A stretch of 64,000 nucleotides of DNA from Bacillota bacterium (GTDB lineage: Bacteria; Bacillota; Sulfobacillia; JAJZYS01; JAILZS01). The stretch covers positions 1 through 64,000 of the forward strand of contig JAILZS010000008.1 of the NCBI GenBank assembly GCA_023512375.1, in the 5' to 3' direction. Positions 11,150 through 59,089 of the stretch are shown here, piece by piece. The position numbers and the translations under genes are program-made. The first letter of the stretch is position 1; every line of letters begins with the position of its first letter. The notes beneath the pieces were generated by a model, which was not told where the DNA came from, ran no database searches, and saw nothing but the letters and a program-made list of their open reading frames with translations.

Positions 11150-12406
11150 TCAGGGCGCCTCCACCTCGATCCCCGGCACGGGCGCCTCGCGCAACACCTC
11201 GTTCGTGTTGCCCAGGGCCCGCCCCACCACTTCCGCCGCGGGCAGCTCCCCGGGCGGGTAGAGCACCAGGAGACCGCCTGCGCTCGCGGGCGCCCCCCCC
11301 ATCGTCACCCGCAGGCCCTGGGCCCGCAGGCGGGCGGCGTACGCCTGCCCCTCGGGGGTGTCTGACACCGCGGCGGTCACCTCGCCGGGCGGCGGCAGGG
11401 GGGGTAGGCCGGTCTGCGGGTGGCGCGCGCCGTAGGGCCGTAGCGCCGCCTCGATGCCCTGGGGGGTGAGGATGTCGTAGTAGGCGCCGATGATCCGCCC
11501 CTCCGCGTTGACACCCGGCAGGGCGGTGGAGTCGATCACCATCGTGTCGGCCAGGTGCCCGAGGCTCACGGAACGGATATGCGCCTCGTCCGCCAGGGCG
11601 AGGAGCGACACGAGCTGACCCGTGGAGAGGTCGGTGGCGAAGTCGGTGCGCAGGACCCCCGCCAGGCGCATGAGGCGCGACGGCGTGGCGTGGCGCAGGA
11701 CCTGGTTCTTGAGGGCCTCCATCACCTGCAGCCCGGCGCTCTGCCGCTGGAAGGCGTTGACGCGGTAGCCGTTGCCCGCCTCGTTCTGGCGGATGCGCAC
11801 GTAGGCCAGGGCCTGGGCCCCGTCCATGTGCTGGTAGCCGGGCGCGAAGTCGGCGTGGCTGTAGGTGGGGTCGTACAGGCGGGCGGGCACCCGGATCCAC
11901 ACCCCGCCCACGTCGTCGATGGCGGCCGCGAAGCCGGCAAAGTCCGCCTCCACGTACCCCTGGATGGGCATGCCGATGAGGCGCGACACCGCCTGCATCT
12001 CCAGTTGCGGCCCCCCCATGAGGAGGGCGGACTTGATCTTGGGGATCGGGTCGTTCCAGCCCGGGAAAGCCACCATCGTGTCGCGCGGCACCGAGATGAC
12101 CACCACCTCCCGCCGCGCCGGGTCGGTGTGGACGACGTACAGGAGGTCGGCCATGCCCGGCGCGGTGGGCGTCGCGGCGTCCCGCGCGTTGTTGCCGATG
12201 AGGAGGATGTTCTCGCTTCGGCCGCCGGCGAGCAGGGAGGCGGCGGCGCGGGCGAGCGAACGTCCGACCGGGGCGGCGTGCCTGCTGGCGGCCACCGCCG
12301 CCGCCGCTCCCAATGCGATGGCCACGGCGGCGGCGACGACCGGCCGGCGCACCCGCCGCCTACGGGCGGGGGGCGCGGCCTCGGACGGGCGACGGCGACC
12401 GGACAT
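11150..12406 (-). CDS. LytR-CpsA-Psr (LCP) family cell-wall glycopolymer ligase
   Basis: Membrane-anchored enzyme that transfers glycopolymers from a lipid carrier to peptidoglycan. 418 residues: basic cytoplasmic N-terminus, one membrane helix (~20-40), the LCP catalytic domain with NNARDA, ISVPRDTMV and RIRQNEAGNGYRVNAFQRQ (the arginines and aspartates that bind the pyrophosphate), then a C-terminal LytR_C domain (~330-410). The ATG at 12406 is chosen for GGGAGGGTGGCCCC before it. It appears to be a single-gene unit. Confidence 0.9.
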   Translation of the reverse strand: MSGRRRPSEAAPPARRRRVRRPVVAAAVAIALGAAAAVAASRHAAPVGRSLARAAASLLAGGRSENILLIGNNARDAATPTAPGMADLLYVVHTDPARREVVVISVPRDTMVAFPGWNDPIPKIKSALLMGGPQLEMQAVSRLIGMPIQGYVEADFAGFAAAIDDVGGVWIRVPARLYDPTYSHADFAPGYQHMDGAQALAYVRIRQNEAGNGYRVNAFQRQSAGLQVMEALKNQVLRHATPSRLMRLAGVLRTDFATDLSTGQLVSLLALADEAHIRSVSLGHLADTMVIDSTALPGVNAEGRIIGAYYDILTPQGIEAALRPYGARHPQTGLPPLPPPGEVTAAVSDTPEGQAYAARLRAQGLRVTMGGAPASAGGLLVLYPPGELPAAEVVGRALGNTNEVLREAPVPGIEVEAP

Positions 12407-12478
12407 GGGGCCACCCTCCCTCCCTACGTCGGGCGGGTCGTCCTGGCGGGCGGGGTGCGGACCGCGCCGCACCGCTAG

Positions 12479-27380: not shown

Positions 27381-28628
27381 CTAGCCCTCGCCCTCGGCCG
27401 TCACCGCCTCCACCCGGACCGCCAGGGCGCCGTCGCGCATCTCCACCCTCAGCCCCTCGCCCACCCGCGCCTGGGCCGCGCGCACCAGGGGCGTACCGTC
27501 GGGGCGCCGCACGAGCGCGTAGCCGCGGGCGAGCACCGCCAGGGGCGAGAGCGCCTCCAGGCGTTCCGCCGCCCCGGCCAGGCGGCGGCCGGCGCGTTCC
27601 AGGCGGAGGGAGAGGGCGCGGGCGAGGGCGCGCTCCAGGCCGTCCAGCCGCTCCCACTCCCGCTCCACCCGCGCTCGAGGCCGGCGCAGCGGCGGACGGG
27701 AGAGGAGGGCGCTCAACCGCAGCGCCTCGCGCCGGTGGCGCTGGCGCAGGGCGTGGGCCAGCCGCGCCCGCGCCGCCGCCACCGCCTGGGCGAGGGCGCG
27801 CCCGTCGGGCACCGCCATCTCCGCCGCCGCGCTGGGGGTCGGCGCCCTGGCGTCCGCCGCATGGTCGACCAGCGTCCAATCCGTCTGGTGGCCTACGGCG
27901 GCGATCACCGGCACGGGCGAGGCCGCCACCGCCCGCACCACCGCTTCATGGTTGAAGGCGCTCAGGTCTTCCGCCGCGCCGCCCCCGCGCCCCACGATGA
28001 CCACGTCCACCCCGGCGCGGCCGATGCGCGTAAGCGCGTCCACGATCTCCGCCGGCGCCGCCTCCCCCTGCACCTGGCACGGCGCCACCAGGATGGAAAC
28101 GGTGGGCAGGCGGCGGCGCACCACCGCCACCACGTCGCGCAGGGCGGCGCCGCTCAAGGAGGTGACCACGCCTACGCGCCGAGGCAGGCGGGGAAGACGC
28201 CGCTTGCGGGCGGGGTCGAACAGCCCCTCCCGCTCCAGCCGCTCCCGCAGCGCCTTGAGGGCGAGGAAATGGGCCCCCACGCCCGCCGGCAACAGCTCCT
28301 GCACCACCAGCTCCACGCTGCCGTCGCGCTCGTACACGGTGACGGCGCCGCGGGCCAGGACATCCATCCCGGGGGCGGGCTCGAAGGCGAGGGAACGGCC
28401 GGCGCTCTGAAACATGACCGCCCGGAGGGAGAGCGCCCCCTCCTTCAGCGTGAAGTAGCGGTGGCCGGAGGGGGCGTGGAGCTTGTAGGTGGAGATCTCG
28501 CCCCGCACCCAGACCGAGGCGAAGGCCGGCTCCGATTCCAGGCGCGCGCGCGCCGTGCGCAGAAGTTGGGCGACGGTGAACACCCGCGCCCCCTCCGCCA
28601 TGGCGCCGGGCGCCAGGGCGCCGCTCAC
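27381..28628 (-). CDS. xseA: Exodeoxyribonuclease VII large subunit
   Basis: 415 residues: N-terminal OB-fold (VFTVAQLLRTARARLE through the VWVRGEIS and HRYFTLK blocks, ~16-65), then the catalytic domain with RVGVVTSLSGAALRDV, VIVGRGGGAAEDLSAFN and VPVIAAVGHQTDWTLVD, and a helical C-terminal arm. The GTG start overlaps the folD stop by four bases; an ATG nine codons later is an alternative. Confidence 0.95.
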   Translation of the reverse strand: MSGALAPGAMAEGARVFTVAQLLRTARARLESEPAFASVWVRGEISTYKLHAPSGHRYFTLKEGALSLRAVMFQSAGRSLAFEPAPGMDVLARGAVTVYERDGSVELVVQELLPAGVGAHFLALKALRERLEREGLFDPARKRRLPRLPRRVGVVTSLSGAALRDVVAVVRRRLPTVSILVAPCQVQGEAAPAEIVDALTRIGRAGVDVVIVGRGGGAAEDLSAFNHEAVVRAVAASPVPVIAAVGHQTDWTLVDHAADARAPTPSAAAEMAVPDGRALAQAVAAARARLAHALRQRHRREALRLSALLSRPPLRRPRARVEREWERLDGLERALARALSLRLERAGRRLAGAAERLEALSPLAVLARGYALVRRPDGTPLVRAAQARVGEGLRVEMRDGALAVRVEAVTAEGEG

Positions 28629-29464
28629 GCCCCCACCGCCTCCAGGGCGTTGAGCAGGAGGTACGAGACGGTGACCGGGCCCACGCCGCCGGGTACGGGC
28701 GTATAGGCCGAGGCCACGGCGGCCACCTCGCCGGCCACGTCGCCGAGGAGCCGGCCCTCCACCTCCGTCACCCCCACGTCCACCACCACGGCGCCCGGGC
28801 GCAGGGCGGAGGCCGACACCACCCCCGGGCGACCGGCGGCCGCCACCACCACGTCGGCGTCGCGCACCGCCGCCTCTACGCCGTGCTCGGGCCGGTGGAC
28901 GACGTGCACCTGTGCCCCCGCCCCCAGGAGCATGAGGAGGGTCGGCAGCCCCGCCGTCCGGCCCGCCCCCACGAGGGTCACTCGGGAGCGCCCCAGGTCG
29001 ACGCCCGCCTGGGCGAGAATGGCCATCACCGCCCGGGCGGTGGCGGGCGCGCGGGCCGTCGGATCGACGGCCAGGCGCCCGAGCCAGGCGGGCGACAGCG
29101 CATCCACGTCCTTGCGCGGATCCAGCGCCTCCAGCACCCGTTCCCGCTCCAGGGCGGGCGGCAGCGGCCAGGACACGAGCACGCCGTCCACCTCCGGGTC
29201 GGCGTTCAGACGGGCCAGCCGCTCCCGCGCCGTCGCCGTGTCGACGGGCGGGTAGAGCGCCTCCAGGCGGAAAGCGAAGCCGGCCGCCTCGGCCGCGCGC
29301 GCCTGCGTCTCGAGGTAGGAGCGCTCGCCCCCCGTGGGGTCGACGGCGAACGCCACCAGGCGCGGCGCCCGACCGCCGCGCGCCAGGTGGACGCGCAGGC
29401 GCGCCGCCACCTCGGCCCGCACCTGGGACGCGAGGCCGCGGCCGCCCAAGCGGCGGGCGGTCAC
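28625..29464 (-). CDS. folD: FolD-like methylene-THF dehydrogenase/cyclohydrolase, divergent active site
   Basis: 279 residues with FolD architecture: N-terminal catalytic domain, Rossmann NAD(P) domain and the C-terminal TPVPGGVGPVTV signature. Key residues differ from the family. The YxxxK motif reads YLETQ (Y50, Q54), so the catalytic lysine is a glutamine; VQLPLP reads VSWPLP; KDVDGFHP reads KDVDALSP; PCTP reads APAT. In human MTHFD1 a lysine-to-glutamine change at the equivalent position abolishes cyclohydrolase but keeps dehydrogenase activity, as I recall. It may be dehydrogenase-only or altered in substrate. GTG start coupled to nusB (GTGA). Confidence 0.88.
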   Translation of the reverse strand: MTARRLGGRGLASQVRAEVAARLRVHLARGGRAPRLVAFAVDPTGGERSYLETQARAAEAAGFAFRLEALYPPVDTATARERLARLNADPEVDGVLVSWPLPPALERERVLEALDPRKDVDALSPAWLGRLAVDPTARAPATARAVMAILAQAGVDLGRSRVTLVGAGRTAGLPTLLMLLGAGAQVHVVHRPEHGVEAAVRDADVVVAAAGRPGVVSASALRPGAVVVDVGVTEVEGRLLGDVAGEVAAVASAYTPVPGGVGPVTVSYLLLNALEAVGA

Positions 29465-29967
29465 GCCCCGCCCCCCTGCCCCCGGGGCGCGGCCGCCGTG
29501 TGCGCCGCCCCCCCCGCCCCGGCGGGGCGGGGGGCCAGCGCCCCCAACACGCCGTTCACGAACCGCGGCGACTCGGCCGTGGAGTACTGGCGCGCCAGCT
29601 CCACCGCCTCCGCCACCGCCACCGCCGCGGGCGTGTCCGTGTACATGAGCTCGTACGCCCCCAGACGGAGGATGGCGCGGTCCACCGCCGCCATGCGGGC
29701 CACGCCCCAATCGGGCGCCACGGCGTCCAGCAGGGGGTCGATGACCTCGCGTCGGTCGACCGCGCCCGCCACGAGGGCCCGCGCGAAGGCGGCGGCCTCC
29801 GGGTCGCGCGCCGCCGACGCCTCGCGCTCCGGCGCCACCGCCTCCATGCGCGCCGCCGCCTCCACCAGCGCCTCGGCTTCCCCGCCCCCCTGGGCGTCCC
29901 ACATGAACAGGGCCTTCATCGCCCACCGCCGGCCCCGGCGCCGGGCCCGCACTTCCCCTTCGGCCAT
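29461..29967 (-). CDS. nusB: Transcription antitermination factor NusB
   Basis: 168 residues: an arginine-rich N-terminus, then the helical NusB fold with RRWAMKALFMWD and the C-terminal signature AAVDRAILRLGAYELMYTDTPAAVAVAEAVELARQ (in parts, ~95-130) and FVNGVLGAL. It binds boxA RNA with S10 in ribosomal RNA antitermination. Its place between the asp23-like gene and folD is conserved in Bacillota. Confidence 0.94.
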   Translation of the reverse strand: MAEGEVRARRRGRRWAMKALFMWDAQGGGEAEALVEAAARMEAVAPEREASAARDPEAAAFARALVAGAVDRREVIDPLLDAVAPDWGVARMAAVDRAILRLGAYELMYTDTPAAVAVAEAVELARQYSTAESPRFVNGVLGALAPRPAGAGGAAHTAAAPRGQGGGA

Positions 29968-47043: not shown

Positions 47044-48386
47044 GCTCCCGCCTCCTCCAGAGCCGCCACCAGGCGGTCGACCTCCTCCTCCGTCCGCGCC
47101 TCGGTGACGGCGAACAAGAGCTCTCCCCGCCGCTCCGGATAGTCCTCGCCCAGGTCGCTGCCGCCCAACAGGCCGTGGCGCAACAGCGTCGCCTGCACCC
47201 TCTCGGCCGGCACGGGCGCGCGCACGGCGAACTCGTCGAAGAAGGGGGCCTCGTTGGCCAGGCGGTAGCCGGGAAGGGCGGCGATGCGGCGGGCGGCCGC
47301 GTGGGCCAAGGCGAGGGAGCGCTCCGCCGCCTCGCGCAGCCCCTGGGGCCCGAGGCTCGCCAGGTAGACGGAGGCGGCCAGGGCGAGCAGGGCCTGGTTC
47401 GTGCAGATGTTCGATGTCGCCCGCTCGCGCCGGATGTGCTGCTCGCGCGTCTGGAAGGTGAGGGCGAAGCCGCGCTCCCCGCGCGCGTCGTACGTGGCCC
47501 CCGCCAGCCGTCCCGGCAGGCGCCGGACGAGCGCCTCCCGCACGGCGAAAAAGCCCAGGTAGGGGCCGCCGTAAGCGAGGGGGATGCCGAGTGGCTGCCC
47601 CTCGCCCACGGCGACGTCCGCACCCCACTCGCCGGGCGGCGTGAGGACGGCGAGGGCCACGGGATCCACCTGGGCGACGCACAGCGCGCCGTGCCGGTGC
47701 GCCACCTCCGCCACCTCGGGCGCCGCCTCGATGACGCCGAAGAAGTTGGGATCGGCTACGATCACGGCGCACGTGGCGTCGTCCACCGCCGCCGCCAGGG
47801 CGTCGAGGTCGGCCCGCCCGTCCCCGCGGTCGCCCACCTCCACCACCTCGAGGCCGCGCCCGGCCGCGTACGTGCGCAGCACCGCCCGGCTTTGGGGGTC
47901 GACGCTGCGCAGGGCCACCACGCGGGAACGGCCCGTGGCGGAAGCGGCCAGGAGGGCGGCCTCCGCCACGGCGCTGGCGCCGTCGTACATGGACGCCTGG
48001 GCCACGTCCATGCCCGTCAGCTCGGCCATCATGGACTGGAACTCCCAGATCGCCTGCAGGGTACCCTGGCTGATCTCCGCCTGGTACGGCGTGTAGGCGG
48101 TGAGGAATTCGGCCCGGCCGACCACCTCGCGCACGAGGGCAGGGATGAAGCGGTCGGTGGCCCCTCCGCCCAAGAAGCAGACCAGCCGGTCCGTCCCCCG
48201 GTTGGCCTCCGCCAGGCTCGCCATCCTGCGCACCAGCGCCGCCTCCGACAGCCCCGGCGGCAACCTCAGGGGGCGGCCCAGGCGCACGCTCTCCGGCACG
48301 TCGGCGAAGAGATCGGAGACGTCGGCCACGTCGAGCCGCTCCAGCATGCGCCGGCGGTCGTCCGCCGTGTGCGCGAGGTAGCTCAT
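47040..48386 (-). CDS. gcvPA: Glycine dehydrogenase (decarboxylating) subunit 1
   Basis: 448 residues; P-protein N-terminal half with YTPYQAEISQGTLQAIWEFQ, MAELTGMDVAQASMYDGASA and GFALTFQTREQHIRRERATS. Acts with GcvPB to decarboxylate glycine and load the aminomethyl group on lipoyl-GcvH. ATGA overlap with gcvH. Confidence 0.96.
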   Translation of the reverse strand: MSYLAHTADDRRRMLERLDVADVSDLFADVPESVRLGRPLRLPPGLSEAALVRRMASLAEANRGTDRLVCFLGGGATDRFIPALVREVVGRAEFLTAYTPYQAEISQGTLQAIWEFQSMMAELTGMDVAQASMYDGASAVAEAALLAASATGRSRVVALRSVDPQSRAVLRTYAAGRGLEVVEVGDRGDGRADLDALAAAVDDATCAVIVADPNFFGVIEAAPEVAEVAHRHGALCVAQVDPVALAVLTPPGEWGADVAVGEGQPLGIPLAYGGPYLGFFAVREALVRRLPGRLAGATYDARGERGFALTFQTREQHIRRERATSNICTNQALLALAASVYLASLGPQGLREAAERSLALAHAAARRIAALPGYRLANEAPFFDEFAVRAPVPAERVQATLLRHGLLGGSDLGEDYPERRGELLFAVTEARTEEEVDRLVAALEEAGA

Positions 48387-48772
48387 GCCCCCGCCTCCGC
48401 TTGGACGTGGCGCTCGTAGGCGGCGCCGTCCATGAGCTCCTCCAGCTCCCCCGGGGCGCTGGGGCGGATGCGGATCATCCAGCCCTCCTCGTAGGGACTC
48501 CGGTTCACCGCCTCGGGCGCCGAGGCCAGGGCCTCGTTCACGGCCACGACGGTGCCCCCCACCGGCGCGTACAGGTCGGCCACCGACTTGACCGACTCCA
48601 CGACCCCGAAGGCCTCTCCCCGCCTCAGCTCCCGGCCCACGGCCGGGAGCTCGACGAACACCACGTCCCCGAGCTGGTTCTGGGCGTAGTCGGTGATGCC
48701 GACCACCGCCTCCTCGCCCTCCGGCCGGATCCACTCATGCTCCTTCGTGTACCGCCGATCCGTGGGATGCAT
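48383..48772 (-). CDS. gcvH: Glycine cleavage system H protein
   Basis: 129-residue lipoyl carrier; lipoylation lysine K62 in VVESVKSVADLY, plus YTKEHEW and GITDYAQNQLGDVVFVELP. Its start lies inside the 3' end of gcvT (38-base overlap). Confidence 0.97.
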   Translation of the reverse strand: MHPTDRRYTKEHEWIRPEGEEAVVGITDYAQNQLGDVVFVELPAVGRELRRGEAFGVVESVKSVADLYAPVGGTVVAVNEALASAPEAVNRSPYEEGWMIRIRPSAPGELEELMDGAAYERHVQAEAGA

Positions 48773-49937
48773 CGCTGCGTTCGGCCTCCCGCCTGTAGAA
48801 GGGTGTGGGAACCACCTCGGCGCCGACCGGACGGCCGCGCACCTCGACCGCCAGCCTGGCGCCCACCTCCGACACCTCGGCCGCCACCAGGGCGAGGGCG
48901 ACGGCGGCGCCCAGCGTGGGGGAGATGCCGCCCGACGTCACCCGCCCCACCTCGTGCCCCGCCGGATCGAGCACGCGGTAGCCCGTGCGCGGCACGGCGC
49001 GCTCGACGAGCCGAAGCCCCACCACCCGCCGCGGCAGGCCCGCGTCCCGCTCGCGTTGGAGCGCGTCGCGCCCGACAAAGTCCTTGTCGAGGTCGACGAA
49101 CCGCCCAAGTCCCGCCGCGAGCGGGCTCACGTCCGGACCCAGCTCCTGCCCGTAGAGGGGGAGGGCCGCCTCCAGCCGCAGGCTGTCGCGCGCCCCCAAC
49201 CCGGCCGGTACCACGCCCTCCCCCCGGCCCTCGGCCAGGACGGCCCGCCAGAGGGCTACCGCGTCGTCGGGGCGGCAGTAGATCTCGAACCCGTCCTCGC
49301 CCGTGTACCCCGTACGGGCGAGGAGCACCGTCCGCCCCGCCACCTCGGCGGTGCGGCAGCGGAATCGCCCCAGGGCGGAGGCTGCGCCCGCGCTCAGGCG
49401 GTCGAGCACCGCCGCCGCCCGCGGCCCCTGCAAGGCCATCTCCGCCGTCTCGTCCCCCACGTCTTCCACATCGACCGCTGTCCATCCCCCGGCCTGGGCC
49501 TTCACCCAGGCCCAGTCCGCCTCCCGCCGGGCGGCGTTCACCACGAGGAGGTAGCGCCCCTCGTCCAGCCGATAGACCATGAGGTCGTCGATCGTCCCGC
49601 CGTCGGGGGCGGTCATCGGGCTGTAGCGCGCCCGCCCCGGGGCGAGGTTGCCGATGCGGTTGGTGAGCAGGTGGTCCAGGAAGGCCCCCGCCCCCGACCC
49701 CCGCACCTCGATCTCCCCCATGTGGGAGACGTCGAACAGCCCCGCGGCGGAGCGCACCGCGCGGTGCTCGGCCACGATGGAACCGTAGTCGAGCGGCATG
49801 CGCCAGCCGTGGAAGTCCACCATACGCGCGCCCAGGGCCTCGTGTTCGCCGTACAAAGGCGTGCGGCGCTCGCCCGATCCGTCCGTCCTGCCCGCCTCCT
49901 CGTCGGCCTTGCGGGCCGCCCCAACAAAGTTCAGCAC
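48735..49937 (-). CDS. gcvT: Aminomethyltransferase (glycine cleavage T protein)
   Basis: Transfers the one-carbon unit from aminomethyl-lipoyl GcvH to THF, making methylene-THF. 400 residues: MVDFHGWRMPLDYGSIVAEH, GLFDVSHMGEI, ARTGYTGEDGFEIYC and the C-terminal barrel with FVGRDAL and VGRVTSGGISPTLG. A ~25-residue N-terminal extension precedes the usual start TPLY. It overlaps the aroKB stop by 7 bases. No glycine riboswitch is present because there is no leader between them. Confidence 0.95.
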   Translation of the reverse strand: MLNFVGAARKADEEAGRTDGSGERRTPLYGEHEALGARMVDFHGWRMPLDYGSIVAEHRAVRSAAGLFDVSHMGEIEVRGSGAGAFLDHLLTNRIGNLAPGRARYSPMTAPDGGTIDDLMVYRLDEGRYLLVVNAARREADWAWVKAQAGGWTAVDVEDVGDETAEMALQGPRAAAVLDRLSAGAASALGRFRCRTAEVAGRTVLLARTGYTGEDGFEIYCRPDDAVALWRAVLAEGRGEGVVPAGLGARDSLRLEAALPLYGQELGPDVSPLAAGLGRFVDLDKDFVGRDALQRERDAGLPRRVVGLRLVERAVPRTGYRVLDPAGHEVGRVTSGGISPTLGAAVALALVAAEVSEVGARLAVEVRGRPVGAEVVPTPFYRREAERSDASHGSAVHEGA

Positions 49938-55332: not shown

Positions 55333-57273
55333 ATGGCGCATGGCGGTCGGCTCACCGTTCCGCTGGTGCGCGACGGCGGCGGGCTCAGGCCGGCCACCTG
55401 GGACGAGGCCCTGGACCGGGCGGCGGCCGGCCTGGGCGCCGCCGTGGCGCGGGGCGGTCCCCGCTCGGTGGGCGTGTTCAGCTGCTCGAAGGCCACCAAC
55501 GAGGTGAACTACCTGGCGCAGAAGTTCGCTCGCGTCGTACTCGGCACAAACAACGTCGACAGCTGCAACCGCACCTGACACGCCCCCAGCGTCGTCGGTC
55601 TGGCGACGGTGTTCGGTGCCGGTGGCAGCACCAGCTCCTACGAGGAGATCGAGAACACGGATGCGATCCTCCTGTGGGGCTCCAACGCCCGGGAGACGCA
55701 CCCCATCTTCTTCCACCACGTCCTGCGCGCCCTGCGGCGCGGGGCACGCCTGTACGTGATCGACCCCCGGCGGACGTCGACGGCCTCCTTCGCCCATCTA
55801 TGGCTGGGCATCGACGTGGGCAGCGACATCGCCCTCGCCAACGCGATGGGCCGGGAGATCATCCACGCCGGATTGGTGAACACCCGCTTCGTCGAACGCG
55901 CCACCACAGGCTTCGAGGCCTACCGCCGAGCGGTCGAGCCCTACACCCTCGAGTTCGCCGAGCGCACGACCGGCGTCCCGGCCGAGGCCATCGCCCGCCT
56001 GGCGCACGACTACGCCCGCGCCGACCGGGCCGAGCTGTGCTGGACGCTGGGCATCACGGAGCACCACAACGCCGTCGACAACGTCCTCGCCCTCATCAAC
56101 CTGGCGCTGCTCACGGGACACGTGGGACGGTACGGCAGCGGCCTCAACCCCCTGCGCGGGCAGAACAACGTGCAGGGAGGGGGCGACATGGGCGCCTTGC
56201 CCAACCGCCTTCCGGGGTTTCAGGACCTCGAGGGCGACGCCGAGGCCCGGCGCCGATTCGAGGAGGCCTGGGGGTGCCGCATCGACCCCCAGCGCGGCTA
56301 CCACCTGTCGGAGATGTTCGACGCCGTGGAGCGGGGCGAGCTCACCGCCCTCTACGTGCTGGGGGAGAACCCCGCCCAGTCGGAGGCCGACGGCCGCCGC
56401 GCCGTACGCCTCCTCGAGCGCCTCGACCACCTCGTGGTGCAGGACACGTTCCTCACCCGCACTGCCGAGCTGGCCGACGTCGTCCTGCCCGCCACCGCTT
56501 CGTGGTGCGAGGGCGAGGGCACCGTCACCTCGAGCGAGCGCCGCGTCCAGCGCGTCCGCCCGGCCCTCTCGCCGCCACCCGGGGCGCGCGACGACCTGGC
56601 GATCCTCGCCGCCCTCGCCCGGCGGCTCGGGCACGACTGGGGCGAGCCGACGGCCGAACAGGTGTGGGACGAGTGCCGCCGCCTCTCGCCCATGCACCGC
56701 GGCATGCGCTACGACCGCCTCGAGGCCTTGGGCGGCATCCAGTGGCCCTGCCCGGACGAAGAGCACCCGGGCACCCAGTTCCTGCACGCCCGCCTCTGGC
56801 GCGAGCCCCTGGAGGGCCCCCCTGCCCCCTTCCACCCCGTCGCCTGGGAGCCCCCGGCCGAACCCCTGAGCGCCGAGTTCCCCCTGCGCCTGACCACCGG
56901 GCGCCGTCTCGACGCGTTCAACACCGGCGTCCAGTCCGGGCGCTACCCGTCACCTCTCGGGCGGCGGGAGGCCGTCCACCTCGCCCCCGAGGACATGGCC
57001 CGGATGGGCATCCAGGAGGGGGAACGCGTACGGGTCGTGTCGCGCCGTGGCAGCGTGGAGGCACCGGCGCACTCGGACCCCACGCTGCGGCCGGGGCTGG
57101 CGTTCATGACCTTGCACACGCCGGACGAGGTGGACACCAACCTGCTCACCCTGGACGCGTGGGATCCCCGGTCGGGCACGGCCGAGTTCAAGGCCGCCGC
57201 CGTCCGCGTCGAGCGCCCGGGCGCAGGCGCGGGCGCGACGACCACGGGAAGGAGGGCGAGCGATGGAGGCTAA
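55333..57273 (+). CDS. fdhF: Formate dehydrogenase catalytic subunit, selenocysteine-containing, molybdopterin domain only
   Basis: Oxidises formate (or reduces CO2) at a Mo/W-bis-MGD centre. Read through the in-frame TGA at 55576-55578, it is 646 residues with selenocysteine at position 82 in NNVDSCNRT-U-HAPSVVGL, the exact place of Sec/Cys in FdhF enzymes. Later blocks ILLWGSNARETHPI, LRGQNNVQGGGDMGALP, ADVVLPATASWCEGEGT and the C-terminal dinucleotide-binding domain LTTGRRLDAFNTG are intact. It lacks the N-terminal [4Fe-4S] domain, supplied by the gene at 59086. ATG with GAGGGGG upstream. The 258-base gap to sigK shows no clear promoter. Confidence 0.95.
55576..55610 (+). promoter_or_regulatory. 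SECIS element and UGA selenocysteine codon
   Basis: Hairpin just after the TGA: CGTCG (55590-55594) pairs with CGACG (55604-55608). The apical loop contains GGTCT at 55597-55601, beginning 21 bases after the T of TGA. E. coli fdhF has the same GGUCU apical motif at the same distance, bound by SelB. Confidence 0.88.
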
Positions 57274-59089
57274 CGGGCGCGCACCCGCATCCGACCCCGC
57301 CGAGCGCGCTGCTCTGGACGAGGTGCTCGGGCCCCCGCCCACCGCCTGGCTGGGAGGGGCACGGCGCGAGGTCGACCTGCACGTGGCAAGCGCCGACGCC
57401 CGCCCGGGCCGGGACCGCCTCCTTCCCGCCCTCCTGGCCCTGCAGCGGACGGCGGGCACTCTCACCCCGGGCGCCGTGCACGACCTCGCCCGTCGTCTCG
57501 ACCTGCCGCCGTCCGAGGTATACGGCGTGGCGAGTTTCTACGCCCTTCTCACCCAGTCGTCGCCTGCGGCCGCTACGCTGCACGTGTGCGACGACATCGC
57601 CTGCTCCCTCGCCGGGGCGGCCGAGGTGGCGGCGCAGGCGCGGGAGGCGATCGGCCCCGAAGGGGAGGTGGGGCGCGGCGGCCTTCGCTGGCGCACGAGT
57701 CCCTGCCTGGGGCAGTGCGACCGGGCCCCCGCCGCCTTCCTCCAGCGGACAGGGGAGGAGGACCAAGTCCTCGCCCCGGTTTCGCTTCCATGGAGCGCCT
57801 GGGCCGCACCCCGCCCGCCCGCGCCCACGCCTCCCCCGCCCCAGGTGGGCGGCGAACGGCGCCTTTTGGCGCGCGTCGAGGTCGTCGACCCCGAGGACCT
57901 CGACGCCTACCGCGCCCACGGCGGCTACGAGGCGTTGCGCCGCGCCCTGGACCTGGGGCCCGAGGGCGTGGTGCGGGAGCTGGCCGCCGCCCGCCTTAGC
58001 GGGCGCGGCGGCGCGGCCTTCCCGACGGCGGCCAAGTGGGAGGCGGTGGCCCGCCAGCCCTCCCGCCCCCACTACGTGGTGGCCAACGCCGACGAGTCGG
58101 AGCCCGGCACCTTCAAGGACCGGGTGTTGCTCGAGGGCGACCCCTTCGCCCTGGTCGAGGCCCTCACCATCGCGGGCCTCGCGACCGGCGCCGAGAGGGG
58201 CTACGTGTTCGTGCGCGCCGAGTACCCCCTGGCGCGCGCCCGCATCGCCCACGCCGTGGAGGTGGCCCGGCGGCGCGGCTACCTGGGGCGGGGCATTCTG
58301 GGCCGCCGTTTCGACTTCGACGTCGAGGTGCGCTCCGGCGCCGGCGCCTACGTGTGCGGCGAGGAGACGGCCCTCTTCCAAGCCATCGAAGGGCGGAGGG
58401 GGGAGCCGCGCAACAAGCCGCCCTACCCCACGGCCAAAGGCCTGTTCGGAAAGCCCACGGCCGTCAACAACGTGGAGACGCTGGCCAACGTGCCGCTCAT
58501 CCTGCGCCTGGGCGGCGCGGCCTACGCCGCGGACGCCGACGCCGACGCCACCGGCACGCGTCTGTTCGCCGTCTCGGGGGCGGTGGCCCGTCCGGGGGTG
58601 TACGAGGTGCGGGCGAGGGTCACTCTGGGCGACCTCATCGGGCTGGCGGGAGGCGCCCCACGCGGCGTGCGGGCTGTCCTCCTCGGCGGGGCGGCCGGCG
58701 CCTTCGTCGGTCCCGACGCGCTCGACATGCCCCTCTCCCCCGCCGCCGCCCGCGCCCGCGCCGCCACCCTCGGGTCGGGTGCGGTGGTGGTCTTCCCCCG
58801 CGGCGCCGACCTGACGGCGGCGGTAGGCCGCATCGCCCGCTTCTTCCGGGACGAGTCGTGCGGCCAGTGCGTACCCTGCCGCATCGGCACGGTCCGCCAG
58901 GAGGAACTCGTGCGCCGCCTGGCCGAGGGGAGCCCCCTGGGCACCGCAGCGGAGGAACGGGCCCTGTTCGACGACCTCGCGCGGGCCATGCGCGACGCCT
59001 CCATCTGCGGCCTCGGCCAGAGTGCGCCCAACGCCGTCGAGTCCGCCCTGCGCCTGGGGCTCATCGCGGGAGAGGGGGAAGGGGAATGA
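57263..59089 (+). CDS. NuoE-NuoF fusion: NADH-binding subunit of formate dehydrogenase
   Basis: 608-residue diaphorase subunit linking the formate dehydrogenase to NAD(H). Residues 1-160 are NuoE-like with a [2Fe-2S] site (C109, C114, C148, C152). A proline-rich linker follows, and then a NuoF-like domain with FMN/NADH blocks LSGRGGAAFPTAAKW, NADESEPGTFKDR and GAGAYVCGEETAL, and the [4Fe-4S] motif CGQCVPC plus a later cysteine in SICGLGQ. Start overlaps fdhF by 11 bases with GGAAGGAGGG upstream; stop overlaps the next gene (ATGA). Confidence 0.93.
   Translation: MEANGRAPASDPAERAALDEVLGPPPTAWLGGARREVDLHVASADARPGRDRLLPALLALQRTAGTLTPGAVHDLARRLDLPPSEVYGVASFYALLTQSSPAAATLHVCDDIACSLAGAAEVAAQAREAIGPEGEVGRGGLRWRTSPCLGQCDRAPAAFLQRTGEEDQVLAPVSLPWSAWAAPRPPAPTPPPPQVGGERRLLARVEVVDPEDLDAYRAHGGYEALRRALDLGPEGVVRELAAARLSGRGGAAFPTAAKWEAVARQPSRPHYVVANADESEPGTFKDRVLLEGDPFALVEALTIAGLATGAERGYVFVRAEYPLARARIAHAVEVARRRGYLGRGILGRRFDFDVEVRSGAGAYVCGEETALFQAIEGRRGEPRNKPPYPTAKGLFGKPTAVNNVETLANVPLILRLGGAAYAADADADATGTRLFAVSGAVARPGVYEVRARVTLGDLIGLAGGAPRGVRAVLLGGAAGAFVGPDALDMPLSPAAARARAATLGSGAVVVFPRGADLTAAVGRIARFFRDESCGQCVPCRIGTVRQEELVRRLAEGSPLGTAAEERALFDDLARAMRDASICGLGQSAPNAVESALRLGLIAGEGEGE

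Follow-up and report, generated by a model that had tools for sequence, protein, structure and literature searches.

The folD gene of a Bacillota bacterium, carried in the window (the whole stretch of 64,000 nucleotides analysed here), encodes a protein in which the catalytic lysine of the family is replaced. The question raised is whether such a FolD still hydrolyses methenyl-THF and, if it does not, which protein takes over this step.

The folD locus and its product

The folD reading frame is genuine and is flanked on the same strand by two further frames.

28625..29464, minus strand: folD, 279 aa, GTG start, a predicted dehydrogenase-only methylene-THF dehydrogenase
27381..28628, minus strand: ORF that we take to be xseA-like, directly downstream of folD; homologues adjoin folD in most relatives
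29461..29967, minus strand: ORF, presumably nusB-like, directly upstream of folD

Neighbourhood comparison shows nusB-folD-xseA to be the usual setting of folD in relatives, and a search of the organism's own assembly (2.68 Mb, 93% complete) found no second folD, leaving the 28625-29464 gene as the single copy. The window gene is the organism's ordinary operon copy.

Both Pfam domains of FolD score far above cut-off in the encoded protein (PF00763, 78.4 bits; PF02882, 138.6 bits), and its AlphaFold model (mean pLDDT 93.2, pTM 0.91) aligns with most solved FolD/MTHFD entries at Z of 33-38; on this model the product is predicted to be a well-folded FolD. Among the best 25 of 30 families, its top score of 202.2 bits falls below the NCBIfam FolD equivalog cut-off of 355. 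The closest sequences in the PDB are FolDs annotated as bifunctional, the label that databases attach to such proteins.

Substitutions in the folate pocket

In the human enzyme, Tyr52, Lys56, Gln100 and Asp125 are assigned to substrate binding and catalysis (PMC3368264). An alignment of FolDs from 179 genomes locates the corresponding positions as follows.

29303..29305, minus strand: codon of Gln54, replacing the catalytic Lys (human Lys56, E. coli Lys54)
29171..29173, minus strand: codon of Ser98, replacing the partner Gln (human Gln100, E. coli Gln98)
29102..29104, minus strand: codon of Asp121, the folate-binding Asp, retained

Tyr50 of the folate pocket and the C-terminal signature are likewise retained. 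A first-pass annotation had claimed that the catalytic lysine and other substrate residues are replaced while the C-terminal signature and the fold are kept, and the alignment and the predicted structure bear this out. Its readings YLETQ (residues 50-54), VSWPLP (97-102) and DALSP (within KDVDALSP, 118-125) also stand, but the PCTP counterpart, given there as APAT, aligns as PATA (140-143).

Conservation in relatives, by which the first-pass annotation had proposed to judge these changes, indicates that the four are unequal in weight. Specifically, the 140 genomes with an intact FolD are defined by Lys at position 54, and in these residue 98 is Gln in 114 and Glu in 26, and never anything else, so that Gln54 and Ser98 are each informative rarities. 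Of the 114 ordinary FolDs, 3 have Ala122 (DA for DG) and 1 has Ala141 (PAT for PCT), the latter residue being found in 20 of 26 Gln98Glu FolDs; on these counts DALSP is weak evidence, and PAT is common to another class linked to FTCD_C, the domain (PF04961) of the FchA family. A further 33 named loci were fetched with patterns including KDVDA and are unusable for judging that motif. Residues of the NADP loop (167-168 and 191-193) are also altered, reading VGAG for VGRS and HRPE for HSRT; with Gly168 common to 23 of 26 Gln98Glu FolDs, these changes suggest that cofactor use may differ.

According to the first-pass annotation, the Lys-to-Gln change in the human enzyme reportedly removes cyclohydrolase activity; our literature search did not find this result, and its K56Q match was an unrelated mutation in CcpA. 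Evidence for both positions comes instead from E. coli FolD, for which PMC5688156 gives about 19% dehydrogenase and undetectable cyclohydrolase activity for K54N, and about 8% dehydrogenase and about 1% cyclohydrolase activity for Q98H.

Association of FolD type with FTCD_C

The survey compared the aligned FolDs of 179 genomes (the organism's own, 80 relatives and a phylum sample) with the presence of PF04961, 7 of 186 genomes having been dropped for lack of a usable FolD (G024, G075, G098, G153, G157, G173 and G181). FTCD_C was present in all 39 genomes without any FolD keeping Tyr, Lys and Asp, whereas 85 of the 140 with such a FolD carried it (Fisher p 6e-8, a naive value that ignores kinship among genomes). 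Among the latter, FTCD_C accompanied Gln98 in 59 of 114 genomes and Glu98 in 26 of 26, and residue 98 was altered in 35 of the 39 Lys-less genomes; altogether, every genome with the Lys or the Gln changed (65/65) had FTCD_C. Similarly, of five named genomes picked by FolD type, the two Lys-less ones (Atopobacter sp. AH10 and Anaerotignum lactatifermentans) have FTCD_C and the three Lys-bearing ones (a Chloroflexi bin, Butyricicoccus faecihominis and Angelakisella massiliensis) do not. G139, considered as an exception with a Lys-less FolD and no FTCD_C, was rejected as such on finding that its second folD bears the Lys.

FTCD_C is frequent in the sample of relatives (66/81), and six genomes of the same order (G002, G003, G005, G006, G008 and G010) have a hut-linked FTCD_C beside an ordinary FolD. 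A tree of the FolDs resolves the Lys-less proteins into only 8 clades, and a tree-aware pair test of Lys loss against FTCD_C was not significant, the contrasts being too few to reach significance. The window FolD groups with those of G029, G049 and G064 (SH-aLRT 94), joined by G001 (81), apart from a 28-member Lys-less clade.

Together, the E. coli data of PMC5688156 and the co-occurrence survey support the suggestion of the first-pass annotation that this FolD is dehydrogenase-only, which we regard as probable. More generally, the Lys and Gln pair seems, from these alignments, to distinguish dehydrogenase-only from bifunctional FolDs; a literature search, with most subscription papers outside its reach, did not find the link between this Lys and FchA stated in print. 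Should enzyme assays bear this out, the sequence would allow annotation to be put right, together with metabolic models of formate and glycine use, and Lys-binding FolD inhibitors (carolacton, for example) would be expected not to work against these organisms.

Other unusual FolDs were seen in the survey. The operon copies of G007 (L109), G009 (L105) and G012 (L110) lack Tyr, Lys and Asp, and those of G013 (L108) and G014 (L107) lack the Tyr; all five genomes carry a second, Lys-less folD beside fchA elsewhere, and the operon gene looks like an older copy that has degenerated or been repurposed. Additionally, a YxxxQ/KDVEG paralogue (Asp to Glu) lies in tandem with or close to a Lys-bearing FolD in L247 (G107), L213 (G148), L241 (G185), L250 (G136) and L253 (G177), is present also in genomes without FTCD_C, and is perhaps a heteromer partner.

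A candidate cyclohydrolase in a histidine-degradation cluster

The first-pass annotation had predicted a second FolD or a methenyl-THF cyclohydrolase (FchA), and had pointed to fchA, folD and fhs as the genes to look for. The prediction held for the FchA family and failed for folD: outside the window, the genome carries one FTCD_C/FchA-family gene (G000:C32, about 11771-12421), which is diverged, and one Fhs gene scoring over its cut-off, and PurH is also present. At 43.3 bits against the NCBIfam FchA model NF045657 (cut-off 275), the FTCD_C protein scores far below the level of a standard FchA and is, by sequence, a candidate cyclohydrolase of another kind. The assembly being 93% complete, a standard FchA may have escaped it. 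A search of the genome for an archaeal-type Mch returned none; Mch and a second folD, neither being found in the assembly, were both rejected as the missing cyclohydrolase.

The FTCD_C gene is surrounded by hutH, an IclR regulator, hutI, an AIR-synthase-related gene and rarA, and has both the PF04961 domain and the hut neighbours of a histidine-type cyclodeaminase. In relatives of the same order hutH, hutI, FTCD_C and rarA also occur together, and in L114 and L119, the two loci in which the domains were read, hutH and hutI flank a formiminotransferase. The formiminotransferase domain is found in 14 of 15 genomes of the order, the organism's own being the only one without; none was found on searching its assembly (93% complete), and the IclR gene occupies the spot expected for it. 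The FTCD_C gene itself retains an open frame, the PGGG loop and three residues invariant in the family (Asp, Asp and Asn), and has lost a nearly invariant Pro (kept in 97%); in the FTCD_C tree its terminal branch is the longest of all, and it falls apart from the other copies of the order.

Each member of the FolD clade (five genomes) has a single FTCD_C, of the stand-alone or the fused formiminotransferase-cyclodeaminase kind. The fused form occurs in three sister genomes, with domains read in G029 and G049 and G064 assigned by a shared open frame; in L124 (G029) and L132 (G064) this frame adjoins the flagellar gene fliW, and in L124 also fliS. A separate arrangement is seen in L130 (G017, contig C9 24000-31500), where Fhs, FTCD_C, hutI and a formiminotransferase lie together in a genome whose FolD is Lys-less (Ile).

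The window also encodes the following proteins, identified by domain search.

48383..48772, minus strand: GCV_H, glycine cleavage H protein
48735..49937, minus strand: GCV_T, glycine cleavage T protein
55609..59089, plus strand: molybdopterin oxidoreductase (55609-57273) with a Nuo51/thioredoxin-type subunit (57263-59089)

These are in line with the glycine cleavage system and formate dehydrogenase that had been noted here; the last pair fits an NAD-linked formate dehydrogenase, and we infer its specificity for formate. Beside these enzymes, a dehydrogenase-only or repurposed FolD might, as the first-pass annotation proposed, reshape one-carbon flow.

A proposed division of labour

According to the reading we favour, FolD would interconvert methylene-THF and methenyl-THF but leave methenyl-THF unhydrolysed, Fhs would make 10-formyl-THF from formate, and the FTCD_C protein, once a formimino-THF cyclodeaminase and now without its formiminotransferase partner, would carry out the methenyl-THF/10-formyl-THF step. 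Its parts differ in strength: a dehydrogenase-only FolD is likely, and a former cyclodeaminase acting as cyclohydrolase is plausible, if unproven, with the chances that the FTCD_C protein performs this step about evenly balanced; the reading as a whole has somewhat better than even prospects. A cyclodeaminase that no longer has a supply of formimino-THF may be decaying or may be kept for cyclohydrolysis, and the second option fits the altered FolD. More tentative, and rather doubtful as it stands, is the history this would imply, in which the histidine-breakdown cyclodeaminase took over the housekeeping cyclohydrolase role in this lineage, FolD lost its cyclohydrolase residues and the present genome also lost the formiminotransferase, leaving a stand-alone methenyl-THF cyclohydrolase. 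Such a hut-derived partner would be new, none having been found in the literature search, to which most subscription papers were out of reach.

The most serious alternative, although unlikely, is that FolD is dehydrogenase-only and that no enzyme replaces the lost activity, Fhs making 10-formyl-THF, methenyl-THF being hydrolysed spontaneously and FTCD_C being a decaying leftover of histidine breakdown. The presence of Fhs, the strong divergence of FTCD_C and the absence of formiminotransferase accord with this, as does the survival of E. coli K54N mutants, which their authors credit to the spontaneous reaction (PMC5688156); the same mutants grow very slowly, however, and the presence of FTCD_C in all 39 Lys-less genomes speaks against this alternative, as do the open frame and intact invariant residues of the copy found here. 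Moreover, G001, from the window FolD's own clade, has PurH but no Fhs, so that some source of 10-formyl-THF is needed there.

That FolD is still bifunctional, with other pocket residues standing in for the Lys and the changes serving as tuning, is improbable. It draws on the MTHFD of Bombyx mori, in which K53A retains cyclohydrolase activity (kcat/Km 0.097 vs 0.13), as does Q97A (PMC6443876, Table 2). Against it are the loss of cyclohydrolase in the E. coli mutants (PMC5688156), the simultaneous alteration of both sites in the window FolD, and the restriction of such changes to FTCD_C-bearing genomes in the survey.

We consider it equally improbable that FolD is under relaxed selection, or has been repurposed for another substrate or cofactor. 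Changes at 22 of 75 conserved columns (rank 12 of 237) and the altered NADP loop would suit this explanation, as would the clearly degenerate operon copies of G007, G009 and G012, but many other Lys-less FolDs have 17-23 changes whereas degenerate operon copies have 25-33. The intact Tyr50, Asp121 and C-terminal signature and the status of the gene as the only folD also argue against it, as does a dN/dS of about 0.24-0.33 in sister-genus FolDs, indicative of purifying selection, albeit less strict than on xseA. Finally, the Lys might have been given up to resist a natural product that binds it in the manner of carolacton. This would recall K54N and Q98H, which were obtained in E. coli as mutations conferring resistance to carolacton, a compound that K54 anchors (PMC5688156). 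The idea is highly improbable; it leaves the FTCD_C link unexplained, there is no sign of exposure, and it concerns cause rather than present function.

Relationship to known systems

The large Lys-less clade (28 FolDs) shares with the window FolD the replacement of both Lys and Gln and an FTCD_C in the genome, but differs in that the Lys is mostly changed to Ala and the gene belongs to an fchA-folD pair rather than the nusB-folD-xseA operon; many of its folDs lie beside fchA (G007, G009, G026, G037, G051 and others). Aluri et al. reportedly described in 2016 the FolD, FchA and Fhs of Clostridium perfringens, in which a dehydrogenase-only FolD works with a separate cyclohydrolase. The present system resembles it in having Fhs, a separate candidate cyclohydrolase and a FolD predicted to be dehydrogenase-only, whereas C. 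perfringens has a dedicated FchA and the candidate here is a divergent FTCD_C encoded among histidine-degradation genes. The yeast NAD-dependent methylenetetrahydrofolate dehydrogenase is monofunctional. Its structure (PDB 1edz) shares the fold of the window FolD, with Z 30.4 and an rmsd of 2.1 over 266, at 23% sequence identity. The E. coli K54N and Q98H mutants (PMC5688156) are altered at the same two sites, with cyclohydrolase lost and dehydrogenase partly kept, but are resistance mutants with other residues and a single site changed in each. Taken together, the loss of cyclohydrolase residues and the presence of an FTCD_C-family gene are both found here, as in the type with a dehydrogenase-only FolD and separate FchA, a split already known elsewhere and in this organism apparently reached by a route of its own.
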